Of a stretch of 26,645 nt of DNA, positions 1,062 through 9,489 are shown in pieces. Below the pieces are notes generated by a model. That model did no database searches. It saw nothing but the letters and a program-made list of their open reading frames with translations, and was not told the DNA's origin. Made by a program: the position numbers and the translations under genes. Position 1 is the stretch's first letter; every line of letters begins with the position of its first letter. The stretch is from a virus, in the IMG/VR virus record IMGVR_UViG_3300017527_000170, positions 1 to 26,645 of that record. One strand, 5' to 3'.

Positions 1062-1148
1062 GCTAAATGTTGAATGGGGTGAGTTAAAGTAGCAGACGGA
1101 TACATAGCTCATCATTAAACCTTCGATGGGAGGCAGTCAGCATTTAGC
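1062..1148 (+). ncRNA. Candidate three-way-junction structured RNA
   Basis: Hand folding gives three nested helices. P1 pairs 1062-1073 with 1137-1148: 12 base pairs, one G-U. P2 pairs 1078-1086 with 1105-1113: 9 pairs, two G-U, with an 18-base loop (1087-1104). P3 pairs 1120-1124 with 1129-1133: 5 pairs, with a GATG loop. The element fills the non-coding gap between the Cys/His gene and the SSB gene. It matches no tRNA: there is no T-loop in the right place. I recognise no riboswitch or ribozyme core (hammerhead, twister, HDV, TPP, c-di-GMP). It could be a leader element controlling the SSB gene, a small phage RNA, or a processed message segment. Support is complementarity only. Confidence 0.45.
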
Positions 1149-2313: not shown

Positions 2314-2339
2314 AAAATTAGTTTACATTCCTACTAATT
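2312..2339 (-). terminator. Terminator-like hairpin at the end of the leftward late transcript
   Basis: AATTAGT (2316-2322) and ACTAATT (2333-2339) are perfect complements with a 10-base loop that contains the vRNAP stop codon. Read on the - strand, the hairpin is followed at once by six Ts (2317-2312). The position, exactly where convergent transcripts meet, supports a role as late terminator. The stem is AT-rich. A GC-rich 5-bp hairpin inside the preceding + gene (2293-2307) may add to the barrier. Confidence 0.5.
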
Positions 2340-5300
2340 CTCCAGCGGGTACTACTAAAGTTTGATCTAATATATCAAAAGGAGTATTAAATCTATTAAA
2401 TAATCCCATATAAAATATACTTGTATCAGTAATATCATCCATATTTCCAAATAAATCATCTAATAATAAAATACTTAAAGCAGAAGCTGGTTTTTCTTTA
2501 AATTGTTTAAAAATAATTTTCTGAATTCTGAAATAAAATTTAGTAAACATTAATAGACCTACATCATTAACCCACTGCATTTCTCTAGAAGTTGGTACAT
2601 CATAGTTAACAAAAGTTTCTATAATTTCATTTAATATCTGTCTACGATAATTTTCTTTAGCTTCTTTAGTTTTTAACCTTTTAGGAATTGCACTAATTCT
2701 TGTACGATATAGTGCATATCTAGCCATAAAATCACTTACTTGTGTAGCTTTAAGCAATAACTGATAAGGTTTAGTATCTTGTGTAAGATATAAATGTTTA
2801 TAAGTAGAAGTAGCAAAATCAGGCAAATATCTATTTGCTATCTGCTGTACTTTATCTCCAAGTTTAGCTTTAGACGAATAAATATCTTCTTCAAAATTTA
2901 CGTCTTCAATAATACTCTGAAATATTCCTTCATCTAGTAATTCTGATACTACATTTTCAGATATGTCTGTTTCTAACCTGGCTAATTCTACTTGCAATTT
3001 TTTAAGTTTAATTTTAGTCAGTGCCTTATCAGAAGCGATAATTCTTTTTACGATATCTCTTCGTGATACTGCTTTACTATATTTATCTAATTCAATTACA
3101 GCTTCACTTTGATACTTTGCAATATTTTGTGTATTTACACCTTTAACCCAAAGTAAAATATTATTACTTATAAAATTAGGTAATAAAATAACACCTGTTT
3201 TAACTACAATATTACTTTTAGCTATATCAACAACTTCTGTCCATATTTTTCCTATATCAACATTAGGAGCATCAGGAAAGAATGAATTTTGTAGTATCCA
3301 AGTTAAACCTTCATTCATATTTCTAAAACCAGCTCCGACTAAATTTTGTTGATCTGTTAATCTTAATTTTCTAAAACCAAAAATTAAATTAACAAACTCT
3401 TTCCGTATCATTACAGGATTACCTTTACCCCAAATATCTTCCATATCTTTTTTCATTTCTTTGGGCATAAGTCTATACATTTCACGTAATTCTTCATCCG
3501 GACTAGTATCACTAATATCTACAAAAGCACTTTGATCTTGTAAAAACTGTGCATCAAATTGTCCTTTAGCAATAAGTAAAACCTGTTTATTAACTTTTAC
3601 AGAATTTACTTTGTCTACAATACTTCCAAATGTCCTACCTAAAGAATAATCAAATCTATTATCTCTATTTAATATTGTATCCTTTGCAAAATCAGTCATA
3701 ACATAACGATAAGAGGCTGTACTACCGCTTTCATTAACTACTGGGACCAAAGCTATACCTTTAGTTTTAAATCCCTTAGAAGTGAACTGAGCCTTAATAT
3801 CTGAAGCAGTAGCTTTCTTTATTTGTCTTGTTTTAGTTTGAGCATCAAAATACGTACCATCTGTAACATGAGTAGTATAAATATCTTCTAAAGTAGTACC
3901 ATTAGCCTGTCTACTAGTCAAAGAAGCTATAGTTTTAACCCATGGCGAATTAGAAGCAGATTTATTTACGTATAGGTATCTAGGCTCTGTATTATCATTA
4001 GTATCCATACGTAATTTAGTATCTTTTACTAATCTGTACCCAGCTTTACTCATCTGTTCGATTGTTTTTTGTTTTTTATCTCCAACCTTTATATCAATAT
4101 TAGGATCAAAATTTTCTTTAGTATAACCTTTAGCAGTTAAAGCTTTATTACCATGGAAAAGTTTTTCTAAAGACTGCTTTTTAGCTAATACCTGTAAATT
4201 AAATAATGCAGCTATACCATTAACTTTACCGTCTACTTCATTTTCTCTTGCGTATACATCAGCAGCTAAATCTTTTTCCTTTTGAGATGTAGCTAATAAA
4301 CTGTATAAAGTAGCTAATTCATCTATTAATAATTCTGCTTTAGCAATATCGCCCTGAGCTTCTACACTTACATTATTTAAACTAGCTATATTAAAAGCAT
4401 TACGCATCTGTCCAGATACAAAATCATCTCCTTTAGCCATAAGATTTCCTAATCCTCTAGCTTGATGAATATAGTACCAACTATTAGATCCATCTTTTTT
4501 ACCACCAAATTCTGTAGATAATAGTTGAGTTTCTACATCCTGTATAAATATTGCTAAAGATGCAGGATCTCTTAATATTTGCATTAAATTGTCAGGTGTA
4601 TATTTATCAGGCTCCACAGTAGTTAAAAGAGCTGTTATATCTGTTTTCATAAAAGACTTATAAACAGCAGCACTTTCTTCTTTTGTAAGTTTAGTATGTA
4701 AACTATCATTTAGCTGTTTTATTACATTATCTGCTTCATGCATTCTAGCTTGATCAATAGTCTTTTTAGAAATTCTTAACATAGAATGCCATACAGAATT
4801 ATTTTCAGTTAATCCCTGCATCTCTCTGACTAATTTAGTAATAAAACTTCTTTCTGTAAGAGCTATATTAAAGCTAATTTGTTTTATAGCTTTTCCTAAT
4901 GCACCATAAATTTTTGGATCTAATAATGAAACCAATGTACCTACAGTTCTTCCTACTTTGGTAGTAGGCTTATTGTCACTTATATTATATTTATGTGCAG
5001 GAGCAAATATGAATTTATTTAGTAATCCTAAAGTTTTTTCATTTACTCCATCTAAAGATTCAAAAATCCTTAAAAACCCATATTTATTTTTTTCATTAGT
5101 AGTCATCATTTGATCTACTAAACGTCTTAAAGCTACATCTCCCGATAAGTTATTAACTTTTACAATTCTATTTGAAATATTAATAATAGCATCATGAAAC
5201 CAATTTTTTAGTTTATCCCACAATGTGTTGGTTTTTTCTGTTTTTGTTTTTTGTTTTGTTTTTATAGATGCTAATTTCTTAACCATTCTCTCATTAGATA

Positions 5301-8300
5301 ATCCATAAGCTACAAATTCATGTAAATAAGGATTTATCTTTTTAGTAGTAATATGTCCAGTATTAGGATCAGTGACTTTTACTTCCTCTATTCTAGTACT
5401 ATTAAATATATAATCGTATGTCTCTTTAGCTGTTGTTATTTCTTCTTTACTAGGTTTTTTCTCACCTTCTGGAAGAAAGTCTTTATATGTAAATACCTTT
5501 TCAGCTTGAGTATATAACCGTTTAAGAGCACTTCTGAGTCTAGGATTACTATCTATAGCATTTTCTGTTACAGCGTGTATAAGCTCGTGTACGTACACTT
5601 CTTGAGCTGATAACTGAGCATTATTATTAACTGTACTTGCTGAACCTAATATATGTATATCCTGAGAACCGTCTTCAAATGTTCTTTGAGCACCAAAAGT
5701 AATATCAGTAGTTTCACCTACTTTTAAATCAATACTGCCTTGTAATTTAACAAAATTATCCATTAATTCTTCTAAACGTGCAGTATGAGCTAAAGAATCT
5801 TTTTTAGTACCTATTGAAGCAATAGCATTAAATACTGTTTTAATATTTGTAGCATTAACAGTAGCACTCATCAACGTAACAAAATTATCAAAATCTACTG
5901 TGCGTGAAGAAGATCCTTTTATGGTACTAAAAGCACTATCTATTAAATTTTCTAATTCCTGTTCTTCAGATAGTTTCAATATTCCTTGTAAGACTACCTT
6001 ATTACCGCCTGGTGTATGTGCAGCATTAGCTACTGTAATTACAGGATTATCCTCTATAAACGTTTTACGTTTAGCTTCTAATTCCAATAAAGCTCTTTTA
6101 TAGAGTGTACGAAATTCAGCAAAAGATGTTTTTTCTGTCTTAAACCCGTCAGGTGTTTCTCTTATTACATTTATAACTTTTTTGCTAAACAGTTTATTAA
6201 CAACAGATTGAGCATCTTTAGTATCATTAATCAATTTATTATATTGATCTACCAAAATGCTTTCAGGTCTTTTAGGCAATACGATAGAATTCGGTTTAGC
6301 TTTTTTATATGCCATACCAACACTAACTAAACTAGCATCAACCTCTTTCAGTAAATTATAAGTTTGAGTTGTAAATTGTAAAAATGCTTCATTATAAGAT
6401 TTTGTACCTTCTTCTACAGTAGCTAAAGAGTGAATACCTGCATCATGAATACTAATTGCAGATACAGTTGTAAGCATAGCTTGCTGTATAGCAGAATCTA
6501 AATTATGAATATTAACTACTGCTCCAGATACGCCAGGTGTACTAAATTCATATGCTGTTGAGTAATTCGTTAAACTACTGGACTTAGTTCCGTTTGGAAG
6601 GTTGCCACTGTACTGCTGTTGATTTTTATGTCCAGAATCATATTGTCTTTTAATTCCGCCTTTAATAGCTGCAATACCATCATCTAAACCATCTGATAGT
6701 GGACCTTTTATTACTGGCATAGTATTTCTTATACTTTCTATAATAGCTTCAACTTCTTCTAAAGATAAATTTCTTTCTTTTAAAAGAGTTTGATTAGCTA
6801 TTTCAGCAGTAAATTTACTATTAAATAAAGCAAACATTATTTCAAAAGATTGGTTGATGTAGTTTCTATAAACCATAAATGAACCAAGTCTCTCTGTAAG
6901 TGCTTGTTCTAAAGCTAGACCGTAAGTTTGTTGTACAGCCTCAAGAAAAAGTTTTTTCTGTGTACTGTTTAAAACAAAATTTTTAGCTTCTGTTTGTGGG
7001 TTTAAAGGAGCTTGATTATTTGTTATCTTGTTATATAAATTTTCTAAAGTAGCAAGAGTTTCAGGATTATTATTAGCAGCAGCTAATTCAGAATAAAACT
7101 TTTCTAACACGGTATTAGAAAAAGAAACTTTAGCTTTTTCTATAGAAGCTCCATAATTAGTAAGCATTAAAGGATCTTTAGAATACAATCTTCCTGTATC
7201 AGATATCAAACTACTGGAATCTTCATAAAATGATCCAACAAGAGATTCTATAGCTAAAATAACAGGAGCTGATTTAAGACCTGATTTTTTATATAGCTCG
7301 ACGAAAGATGACCAGGAAACAGCTAATTTTTGATATAAGTCATAATTTTTAAGCTGACCTCTCCAAGTAGGATAATCACTAAAAGTAGAATCGTTAGATA
7401 CACCGATAGCTGCTCTATCATCAACACTACCTGTCAGAGATTGCATCATACCGATAGCTACACCACTAGTTACAGCATCTGTCTCTATTGCAATATTAGT
7501 AACAAACGGAGTAAACGCTAATCCACTTAAAGCAGTTAATTCCGTCTGTCCTTCAATAGCTTTACTATAAACAGCTAGAGCATTTAAAGCTTCAAATGCT
7601 CCTACACCCCTACTTGAACCATCCGGTTTTATTAAAGCCTGTAATACGATTTTCTGAGATTCTTCACTTAAGTTATCAGCTGCAATAGCATCAATAGCTT
7701 CAGCGTTATTTTTAAAAATATCTTCAAATTCTTGAAAACTATCTTCTGGACTTTGCTTATCTATATCACCACCAAAATTTTGTACAACAGCTAATTTAAA
7801 CTGTTCCAATAATTCTGGTGTGTTTACCTCAAGATTAAAAGAATCTAAACCGATTAAATGACGCATCATATTATCGTCTAATGGGTTTAATGTATTATTA
7901 TCAATAAAAATACGTCCATTACGAGATACAAAGTATTTCATAAAAAAACTAGCGTTAGGACTTTTTAGCTGACTCTGAAAGTCCATAAAATTATCTATAG
8001 ATCTTTGTATTTTATTATTATGTGCTTCAGCTTTAATACGCTGTGTTATGTGTAATGCTTCTATTTGAGCTTCTGTTTTATACCCTAAAATTTCTTTATA
8101 TGTATTTTCATCCATACTAAAAAACTTATTACTAAAATTTGTTTTAATTTTCCATGGATCTTTTTGTAGTTTCTTTAATACTTTTTTAGTTTTTTCAGGA
8201 ACTTTTTGGAGAGTTCTCCGCATAAAAGATACTACTTTTCTGACAATCTTTTTCTCCGGAAAAGAACGATATTCTTTAGCTCCTAATAATTTTGAGACTA

Positions 8301-9489
8301 TAGAAGTTTCTCTGTGCTGAGCATTTAAAGCAGTAGCTTTATCTTTGTTAAGTACTTTAAGAAACATAACAATATTCTGAGAAGGATCTTGATCCATAGG
8401 TATTTCAGTACCTACACCGGTAAATCCTTCTAAAATTGTTTTTTCTACTGGATCTTGACGTATATATCCATCATGCATCATAAAAGAAAGAGCTAATTGT
8501 CCTAAAGCTACTTTCATCTTTTCAGAAAATGCTCCATCAATTTCATTATTTTTAGCTTTAAACCCTAATAAATTAAATACATCAGTACCGATAGAATCTA
8601 TTACCTGTGCTTGAAGTACTATATCCGATAATCCTTCTCGTTCTGTGTCAGTTACTTCCGTTGAAGTATTTCTACCTAACATTCTATTAATATCAGCATC
8701 AGTATTACTGAGTGTTCCTAAAGAAACAGTAGCTTGCCAGTTATACACAGCAATACTTACAGCATCTAATACAAGAGGATCAATAGTTAAATCACTAAGT
8801 TTAGTTCCGGACATTAAATAAGCTAGTACGTCTTGTCTTAACTCTTTAGGCTGTAAAGGTCTAGATTGATTACCGCTACCTTTACGTTCATTAAATACTG
8901 CATTAAAGCCTCTATTAGTCATAAAATTCATTAGTGGAGGTTTGCTATTACTACCTTTAAATAAACTCGCTAATCTACTGGATAAGCCGTTGATTTCACT
9001 AATAACTGCTTTATCTGCTTCATTGGCTTGTTCTAACTCTTTTAAACCCTCATGAGTAGTTAAGTACTCTGCTAATGTAAGGCTTTTAGCATAAAATTTA
9101 TTAAGCTTAGTTCTGGAAAAAGATAATAAGTTGGAAAGATGCTTACTTGTTGCAGTAAAATTAGTACGCTTCATATCACCAATAACTACTGTGTCTGCAT
9201 TTACAATAGTATCTCCAGCACTTTTAATTTGACGTAATGTTAACTCTATTTCTTCATCAGTCATACTTAAAGGGATAAAGTCTAATTGTAATGCTGGCAA
9301 CTTAGATGCTCCAGCAGCTTCTAAAAGACTGTTTCTTTCTTTTAATGTAGTAGATAGAGCAGCATTCAGAGCTGTTTCTTTTTCTCTTATAGATTTTTCA
9401 GAATTACTAAAAATACTTATAGCTTGTTGTAATGCTGAATCTTTTTTGATGCTTACATTATTAAATATCTTATTTATTTCACAAGCCAT
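2323..9489 (-). CDS. N4-type virion RNA polymerase with a fused zincin-like domain
   Basis: A 2388-residue giant with all T7/N4 single-subunit polymerase motifs in order. The T/DxxGR motif is SRNGR526 followed by IFIDNNTLNPL. Motif A is ETD671AVTSGVAIGMMQ. Motif B is Rx3Kx7YG (R767, K771, Y779, in GRLYSKDPLMLTNYG). Motif C is SIH1015D1016AG. Spacings are near those I recall for N4 vRNAP. In N4 this protein is packaged and enters the host with the DNA to transcribe early genes. After the polymerase comes a zinc-metallopeptidase-like segment: H1301-E-L-I-H1305 and a probable third ligand E1391 in HEFVAYGLS. The remaining ~950 residues resemble long helical tails of large ejected phage proteins. 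It is shorter than N4 vRNAP (about 3500), with the polymerase nearer the N-terminus. The start overlaps the upstream stop as TAATG. Polymerase call strong; peptidase activity inferred. Confidence 0.9.
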   Translation of the reverse strand: MACEINKIFNNVSIKKDSALQQAISIFSNSEKSIREKETALNAALSTTLKERNSLLEAAGASKLPALQLDFIPLSMTDEEIELTLRQIKSAGDTIVNADTVVIGDMKRTNFTATSKHLSNLLSFSRTKLNKFYAKSLTLAEYLTTHEGLKELEQANEADKAVISEINGLSSRLASLFKGSNSKPPLMNFMTNRGFNAVFNERKGSGNQSRPLQPKELRQDVLAYLMSGTKLSDLTIDPLVLDAVSIAVYNWQATVSLGTLSNTDADINRMLGRNTSTEVTDTEREGLSDIVLQAQVIDSIGTDVFNLLGFKAKNNEIDGAFSEKMKVALGQLALSFMMHDGYIRQDPVEKTILEGFTGVGTEIPMDQDPSQNIVMFLKVLNKDKATALNAQHRETSIVSKLLGAKEYRSFPEKKIVRKVVSFMRRTLQKVPEKTKKVLKKLQKDPWKIKTNFSNKFFSMDENTYKEILGYKTEAQIEALHITQRIKAEAHNNKIQRSIDNFMDFQSQLKSPNASFFMKYFVSRNGRIFIDNNTLNPLDDNMMRHLIGLDSFNLEVNTPELLEQFKLAVVQNFGGDIDKQSPEDSFQEFEDIFKNNAEAIDAIAADNLSEESQKIVLQALIKPDGSSRGVGAFEALNALAVYSKAIEGQTELTALSGLAFTPFVTNIAIETDAVTSGVAIGMMQSLTGSVDDRAAIGVSNDSTFSDYPTWRGQLKNYDLYQKLAVSWSSFVELYKKSGLKSAPVILAIESLVGSFYEDSSSLISDTGRLYSKDPLMLTNYGASIEKAKVSFSNTVLEKFYSELAAANNNPETLATLENLYNKITNNQAPLNPQTEAKNFVLNSTQKKLFLEAVQQTYGLALEQALTERLGSFMVYRNYINQSFEIMFALFNSKFTAEIANQTLLKERNLSLEEVEAIIESIRNTMPVIKGPLSDGLDDGIAAIKGGIKRQYDSGHKNQQQYSGNLPNGTKSSSLTNYSTAYEFSTPGVSGAVVNIHNLDSAIQQAMLTTVSAISIHDAGIHSLATVEEGTKSYNEAFLQFTTQTYNLLKEVDASLVSVGMAYKKAKPNSIVLPKRPESILVDQYNKLINDTKDAQSVVNKLFSKKVINVIRETPDGFKTEKTSFAEFRTLYKRALLELEAKRKTFIEDNPVITVANAAHTPGGNKVVLQGILKLSEEQELENLIDSAFSTIKGSSSRTVDFDNFVTLMSATVNATNIKTVFNAIASIGTKKDSLAHTARLEELMDNFVKLQGSIDLKVGETTDITFGAQRTFEDGSQDIHILGSASTVNNNAQLSAQEVYVHELIHAVTENAIDSNPRLRSALKRLYTQAEKVFTYKDFLPEGEKKPSKEEITTAKETYDYIFNSTRIEEVKVTDPNTGHITTKKINPYLHEFVAYGLSNERMVKKLASIKTKQKTKTEKTNTLWDKLKNWFHDAIINISNRIVKVNNLSGDVALRRLVDQMMTTNEKNKYGFLRIFESLDGVNEKTLGLLNKFIFAPAHKYNISDNKPTTKVGRTVGTLVSLLDPKIYGALGKAIKQISFNIALTERSFITKLVREMQGLTENNSVWHSMLRISKKTIDQARMHEADNVIKQLNDSLHTKLTKEESAAVYKSFMKTDITALLTTVEPDKYTPDNLMQILRDPASLAIFIQDVETQLLSTEFGGKKDGSNSWYYIHQARGLGNLMAKGDDFVSGQMRNAFNIASLNNVSVEAQGDIAKAELLIDELATLYSLLATSQKEKDLAADVYARENEVDGKVNGIAALFNLQVLAKKQSLEKLFHGNKALTAKGYTKENFDPNIDIKVGDKKQKTIEQMSKAGYRLVKDTKLRMDTNDNTEPRYLYVNKSASNSPWVKTIASLTSRQANGTTLEDIYTTHVTDGTYFDAQTKTRQIKKATASDIKAQFTSKGFKTKGIALVPVVNESGSTASYRYVMTDFAKDTILNRDNRFDYSLGRTFGSIVDKVNSVKVNKQVLLIAKGQFDAQFLQDQSAFVDISDTSPDEELREMYRLMPKEMKKDMEDIWGKGNPVMIRKEFVNLIFGFRKLRLTDQQNLVGAGFRNMNEGLTWILQNSFFPDAPNVDIGKIWTEVVDIAKSNIVVKTGVILLPNFISNNILLWVKGVNTQNIAKYQSEAVIELDKYSKAVSRRDIVKRIIASDKALTKIKLKKLQVELARLETDISENVVSELLDEGIFQSIIEDVNFEEDIYSSKAKLGDKVQQIANRYLPDFATSTYKHLYLTQDTKPYQLLLKATQVSDFMARYALYRTRISAIPKRLKTKEAKENYRRQILNEIIETFVNYDVPTSREMQWVNDVGLLMFTKFYFRIQKIIFKQFKEKPASALSILLLDDLFGNMDDITDTSIFYMGLFNRFNTPFDILDQTLVVPAGELVGM

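Follow-up and report, generated by a model that had tools for sequence, protein, structure and literature searches.

A structured RNA encoded upstream of the SSB gene of an N4-like phage, probably a stand-alone small RNA

The Sak4-SSB gap and the fold of the 1062-1148 unit

The window, by which is meant the whole 26.6-kb virus fragment that was analyzed, was assigned to an N4-like phage and carries genes for a virion RNA polymerase, Sak4, and a single-stranded DNA-binding protein (SSB). The named-phage relatives of this SSB are Alteromonas podophages in every case, which makes it likely that the phage is N4-like and probably marine. On the plus strand, a Sak4-like ssDNA-annealing ATPase gene (195-857; PHROG 124, E = 8e-19), which forms the other border of the hotspot considered below, is followed by a 60-amino acid open reading frame (861-1043) and by the SSB gene (1252-1941; PHROG 743, E = 3e-19), which begins at GTG 1231 in the list of open reading frames. 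The first gene of the minus block encodes the N4-type virion RNA polymerase (2323-9489). Positions 1044-1230 contain no open reading frame and constitute the sole large non-coding gap of the plus block, as the initial annotation had stated.

Within this gap, positions 1062-1148 of the plus strand fold into a three-way junction exactly as initially described, with helices of 12, 9, and 5 bp and an 18-base loop. The unit begins with G and ends with C, as do related units, and is closed by P1, a 12-bp helix between 1062-1073 and 1137-1148. Enclosed by P1 are P2 (1078-1113), a 9-bp helix between 1078-1086 and 1105-1113 whose 18-base loop (1087-1104; AAGTAGCAGACGGATACA) may contain 3 further bp, and P3 (1120-1133), in which 5 bp (1120-1124/1129-1133) carry the loop GAUG. 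The P3 hairpin, together with the end of J2/3 before it and CA behind it, makes up a core at 1115-1135 (UUAAACCUUCGAUGGGAGGCA); the core of this unit type has the form CUUCGAUGGGAG. The unit is preceded by the linker UUUAC (1057-1061), which matches the (U)UUAAC found before units in relatives, and is followed by UAUUUA (1149-1154), the motif behind most related units.

A minimum free energy of -31.1 kcal/mol was obtained for 1062-1148, compared with a mean of -16.5 (S.D. 2.9) for shuffled sequences (z = -4.98), and none of the 200 shuffles folded as well. The reverse strand was unremarkable (-15.0, z = -1.6), the stability of the unit relying on G-U pairs and being lost on the other strand. 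The fold is thus specific to the plus strand, which identifies the signal as RNA on that strand. No reading frame extends over 1062-1148. When the longer stretch 1044-1255 was folded, the unit, the terminator-like hairpin behind it, and both hairpins that precede SSB all remained intact, and no alternative pairing between unit and terminator was seen. A compact folded RNA is very probably encoded just before the SSB gene.

The element at 1062-1148 is a real structured RNA and, as had been proposed, an unrecognized one. Searches of the whole window against Rfam 15 matched no family at the gathering cut-off, the region 1000-1260 gave chance matches only at E ≤ 10 (13 and 10 bits), and no Rfam family was found in 20 related loci. 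ARAGORN detected no tRNA or tmRNA in the window, and allowing introns did not change this result. In place of the tandem repeats of a type III (ToxI-like) antitoxin, the window contains a single unit with no repeat and no Rfam match, and there were no toxin-type matches among the adjacent open reading frames tested. Distant blastn of the unit against phages produced no match, a covariance model of the unit type recovered no further members from 654 kb, and the P3 core was found in none of 84,980 genomes, which gives no sign that the core mimics a bacterial RNA. Glutamine riboswitch and self-cleaving ribozyme motifs were considered and had no Rfam support. The exact 18-base loop matched IMG/VR five times, approximately the number expected by chance, in other contexts and without the fold.

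The sole detectable homologue of the window unit was found in another species, as the third unit of locus L067 (L067:3399-3466), for which there are five contigs, identical to each other and belonging to one species. A pattern search with P3 plus linker likewise gave matches confined to five identical contigs of one species. When L067:3399-3466 was folded independently, its minimum free energy structure had the same three-way junction topology, which supports the initial suggestion of a phage small RNA. A 21-base match around P3 is nearly identical in the two units, and one pair of P3 is exchanged (C-G to U-A); the sequences of P1 and P2 differ, and pairing is preserved in both units. Identity between the window and L067 was 65% over 68 aligned bases of the unit, compared with 79-81% for the flanking genes and 86% for the SSB leader, and the unit therefore changes faster than the genes around it. 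Compensatory changes, with which the initial annotation had let the structure stand or fall, are present in this homologue, but the searched data hold two distinct sequences of the type only, and the shuffle control of the two-row alignment was not significant (117/500). The strength of the comparison accordingly lies in the independent folds and not in counts of covarying pairs.

Downstream hairpins and arrays of stem-closed units

The terminator-like hairpin that had been noted behind the unit (1164-1187, 9 bp; 1164-1192 with its T tail) occurs at the same place in 8 sequences, in which every cell pairs and 7 of the 9 pairs have changed on both sides, a result equalled by none of 500 shuffles. 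This hairpin separates the unit from SSB. Beyond it lie two SSB-leader hairpins. The first (1198-1209, GGG..CCC) is kept in relatives that have no unit, and the second (1222-1236, ACACAC-UGA-GUGUGU) is situated just before the ribosome site; in relatives, where its pairing was read by eye, the stem sequence of the latter varies and the triloop is UGA, UAA, or UGU. Approximately ten relatives have the leader hairpins and lack the unit. The hairpins belong to SSB, and a possible regulatory leader of this gene would be 1198-1236 rather than 1062-1148; they are a candidate SSB translational operator. Gene 32 of phage T4, which encodes its SSB, is autoregulated via its leader, a structured RNA near the SSB start; a similar mechanism could apply to the hairpins at 1198-1236. 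In contrast to that leader, the 1062-1148 unit precedes a terminator-like hairpin and is missing from many relatives.

Approximately 100 loci were gathered through SSB and Sak4 alignments, and their Sak4-SSB gaps were compared by eye and by folding. In these relatives, the number of stem-closed units in the gap ranges from zero to four, their bodies mostly differ, and in many genomes the gap is short and holds the SSB leader only. Units were present in six lineages: L090 (four), L067 (three), L093 and L083 (two each), and L091 and the window (one each). In a further group (L078, L086, L087/88, and L092), other long structured non-coding stretches occupy the gap. The arrays have a layout with a recurring AU linker, UUUAAC-[G..P1..C]-UAUUUAUUUAAC-[G..P1..C]-UAUUUA, and units of 53-108 bases. 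At the unit borders in the six lineages, P1 is closed by a G-C pair, the sequence ahead of the unit is usually UUUAAC or something close to it, and UAUUUA or UAUCUA usually stands after the unit; the linker of L083 differs (AUCAUACUAC). The window unit has the features of the class proposed on this basis, namely a body of the form G-P1...P1'-C between Sak4 and SSB, with UUUA(A)C in front and UAUUUA behind. Neither the AU linkers at the borders, nor the two conserved hairpins before SSB, nor the tandem arrays in relatives had been part of the initial annotation.

An anchored P1 of at least 9 bp was present in 9 of 13 units, compared with ∼2e-4 expected per random stretch of the same regions. 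This contrast is inflated by selection, and some of the borders were set by eye when the position of P1 could already be seen. Of the roughly five units that have a linker at each end, four show a P1 of 9-10 bp (L090u3 has 1). Folding no better than chance was observed for L090u1 (z = +1.2), L090u3 (z = -1.0), and L093u1 (z = -1.3). Two other unit types are shared between genomes, with compensatory changes in P1 (L067u2/L090u1 and L083u1/u2/L093u1), and cores are kept while stems change, namely P3 of the window type, UGAUUGGCCAUAUAC, and CUGAYCACUCAAGC. Three covariance models found no new members in 654 kb; in IMG/VR, the cores of the two other types identified true units in already known contigs only, the remainder being chance matches. 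A two-linker pattern search matched the L090 contig alone. The linker TATYTATTTAAYG was found only within arrays, in three of the 15 records that were searched in full, and not once in the reversed control. Its interpretation as an RNAPII promoter was abandoned, since complete records contain no copy of the motif elsewhere. A literature search of limited coverage found no account of such arrays.

The Sak4-SSB gap of L090 includes an HNH-like open reading frame of homing-endonuclease type at about 3233-3672, recognized by eye (Pfam HNH_3, E 0.13 only). Behind L067 unit 3, positions 3467-3620 hold a possible remnant of an endonuclease C-terminal domain (SKTFHVGLFHSLVEAVIARNN), for which Pfam gave no confirmation.

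A probable self-contained small RNA and competing readings

We assign a probability of roughly 0.55 to the reading that 1062-1148 forms a small phage RNA complete in itself, in which P1 seals a three-way junction with AU linkers on both sides and a terminator-like hairpin behind, and that it is the single member here of a fast-changing structured-RNA array in an N4-like (Schitoviridae-type) clade. This reading builds directly on the fold, its strand, the re-paired homologue in a second species, the shared unit borders, and the covarying hairpin downstream. The unit would be co-transcribed with the middle operon and freed through cleavage of the AU linkers by an RNase E-like enzyme, in the manner of tRNA arrays, and its 3' end would be made or trimmed at the hairpin 1164-1187, such that a stable RNA of ∼87-130 bases persists. 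Action in trans could be mediated by the conserved core, comprising the P3 hairpin YCUUCGAUGGGAGR and the adjoining junction. Fast turnover of the body beneath constant linkers fits an arms race, and the guess ranked first for a role is for this reason that of a decoy for, or an inhibitor of, a host factor that binds or cuts RNA; that the RNA targets a host RNA-targeting factor in this way is only a guess.

Stable structured RNAs, RNA C and RNA D, are encoded in the tRNA cluster of phage T4. Like the units of the present clade, they are small structured phage RNAs with no assigned function that are clustered with tRNAs; T4, however, belongs to another phage group, no shared sequence is known, the window unit has no Rfam match, and several unrelated bodies occur here under one linker near SSB. 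Ordinary phage tRNA arrays resemble the present arrays in having stem-closed units with short AU linkers between them, and a similar linker accompanies the insert-bearing tRNAs of this clade, but the units were not called as tRNAs by ARAGORN or Rfam and lack a CCA end, a D arm, and an anticodon arm. A phage non-coding RNA that blunts host defence is provided by pseudo-ToxI of phage PhiTE (Blower 2012; PMC3475682), a precedent for phage RNAs able to act as decoys or inhibitors. Pseudo-ToxI and the type III antitoxin RNAs are, like the arrays here, structured units in tandem with varying copy number; ToxI units are near-identical 36-base pseudoknots (PMC3475682), whereas those described here are P1-closed, diverse in length and sequence, and without an Rfam family.

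The element is probably a small RNA that stands alone as part of a variable array, rather than the leader sensing SSB or ssDNA that the initial annotation had also suggested. In a cis-acting leader or attenuator, the junction would bind SSB or another ligand and set either read-through of the hairpin 1164-1187 or opening of the SSB site. The unit does share its strand with SSB and precedes it, a terminator-like hairpin stands between them, and the conserved hairpins next to the ribosome site hint that SSB itself may be regulated through its leader. Nevertheless, an SSB-responsive element would be conserved with the gene that it controls, and this explanation is unlikely because many relatives have SSB and the leader hairpins and no unit, while others with the same leader carry two to four unrelated units. 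Furthermore, the conserved terminator-like hairpin cuts the unit off from SSB, unit and terminator stay intact in the longer fold with no alternative pairing, and evolution of the unit outpaces that of the genes.

A structured spacer or processing signal, in which units without a target do no more than shield or insulate the ends of the two messages, Sak4 and SSB, is given the same low probability but is a live rival. The wide variation of bodies while P1, linkers, and downstream hairpin persist is consistent with such a function, but a plain spacer would have no need of the cores that are kept within units as stems change. Slightly more doubtful, and likewise a live rival, is a now functionless remnant of mobile or tRNA-derived sequence in an insertion hotspot, such as eroded tRNA-like genes or intron and homing-endonuclease debris. 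The HNH-like gene in the L090 gap, the possible endonuclease remnant behind L067 unit 3, and the position of the arrays next to tRNAs with an interrupted anticodon loop all point in this direction; debris would, however, be expected to lose pairing, whereas the unit folds strongly and pairing in P1 and P2 is restored between species. A DNA-level element (an origin, a recombination site, or a hairpin promoter for virion RNA polymerase) is very improbable. Short hairpin promoters are indeed used by the N4 virion RNA polymerase (PMC4496689), but the N4 early promoters lie at the left end of the genome only (PMC4496689) and are unlike an 87-base junction whose stability needs G-U pairs and is lost on the other strand.

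Extending the small RNA reading to the clade gives a rather doubtful proposal, in which N4-like phages would carry a diversifying structured-RNA array with several unrelated folds per genome, each directed against a different host RNA-targeting defence factor, and insert-bearing tRNAs within these arrays would serve as further decoys. If true, the array would represent an RNA counter-defence repertoire beneath constant processing linkers. Little is known of structured phage RNAs besides tRNAs, and a hotspot adjoining a core replication gene, where whole folded RNAs are swapped and their borders kept, supplies concrete sequences for tests of counter-defence and RNA mimicry. Alteromonas phage R22Y, an isolate whose SSB belongs to this family, carries a structured RNA and a tRNA-like sequence just behind SSB, which makes bench work feasible.

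Interrupted tRNAs and other structures in the clade

With introns allowed, ARAGORN revealed tRNAs with insertions of 43-130 bases in the anticodon loop in non-coding gaps of the clade. The linker-like sequence CTATTT(A/G)TTTAA stands before tRNA-like genes in L093 and in the contig of L090, and three stem-closed stretches lie upstream of the tRNA in the latter, which suggests that units and insert-bearing tRNAs may share one processing route.

Downstream of SSB in L093, positions 4406-4604 of the plus strand encode a near-perfect tRNA (acceptor CGCAAGG/CCUUGCG, D arm, T arm, and ACCA end) with ∼105-130 bases inserted in the anticodon loop; the insert had no Rfam match to a group I intron. After SSB in phage R22Y (L010), the region 3721-4056 contains a 12-bp stem-closed unit (3721-3774), which lies at about 38653-38706 on the minus strand of PP212876.1. 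Behind this unit is a tRNA-like region that is interrupted and has two T arms, identified by ARAGORN as tRNA-Phe with a 91-base insert. The reverse strand of the L090 contig has a 564-base non-coding stretch (L139:4163-4726), in which the three stem-closed structures are followed by a tRNA-Leu-like gene (Thr according to ARAGORN) with a long anticodon-loop insert. Further tRNA-like genes with inserts of 43-130 bases were observed at L124:687-894 and, within non-coding gaps, at L142 c3367-3516 and L153 c815-933 and c2968-3122. A very strong non-coding structure unrelated to the array (best z = -9.3) was present in the contig of the closest relative (L152; G013:53952-54237).
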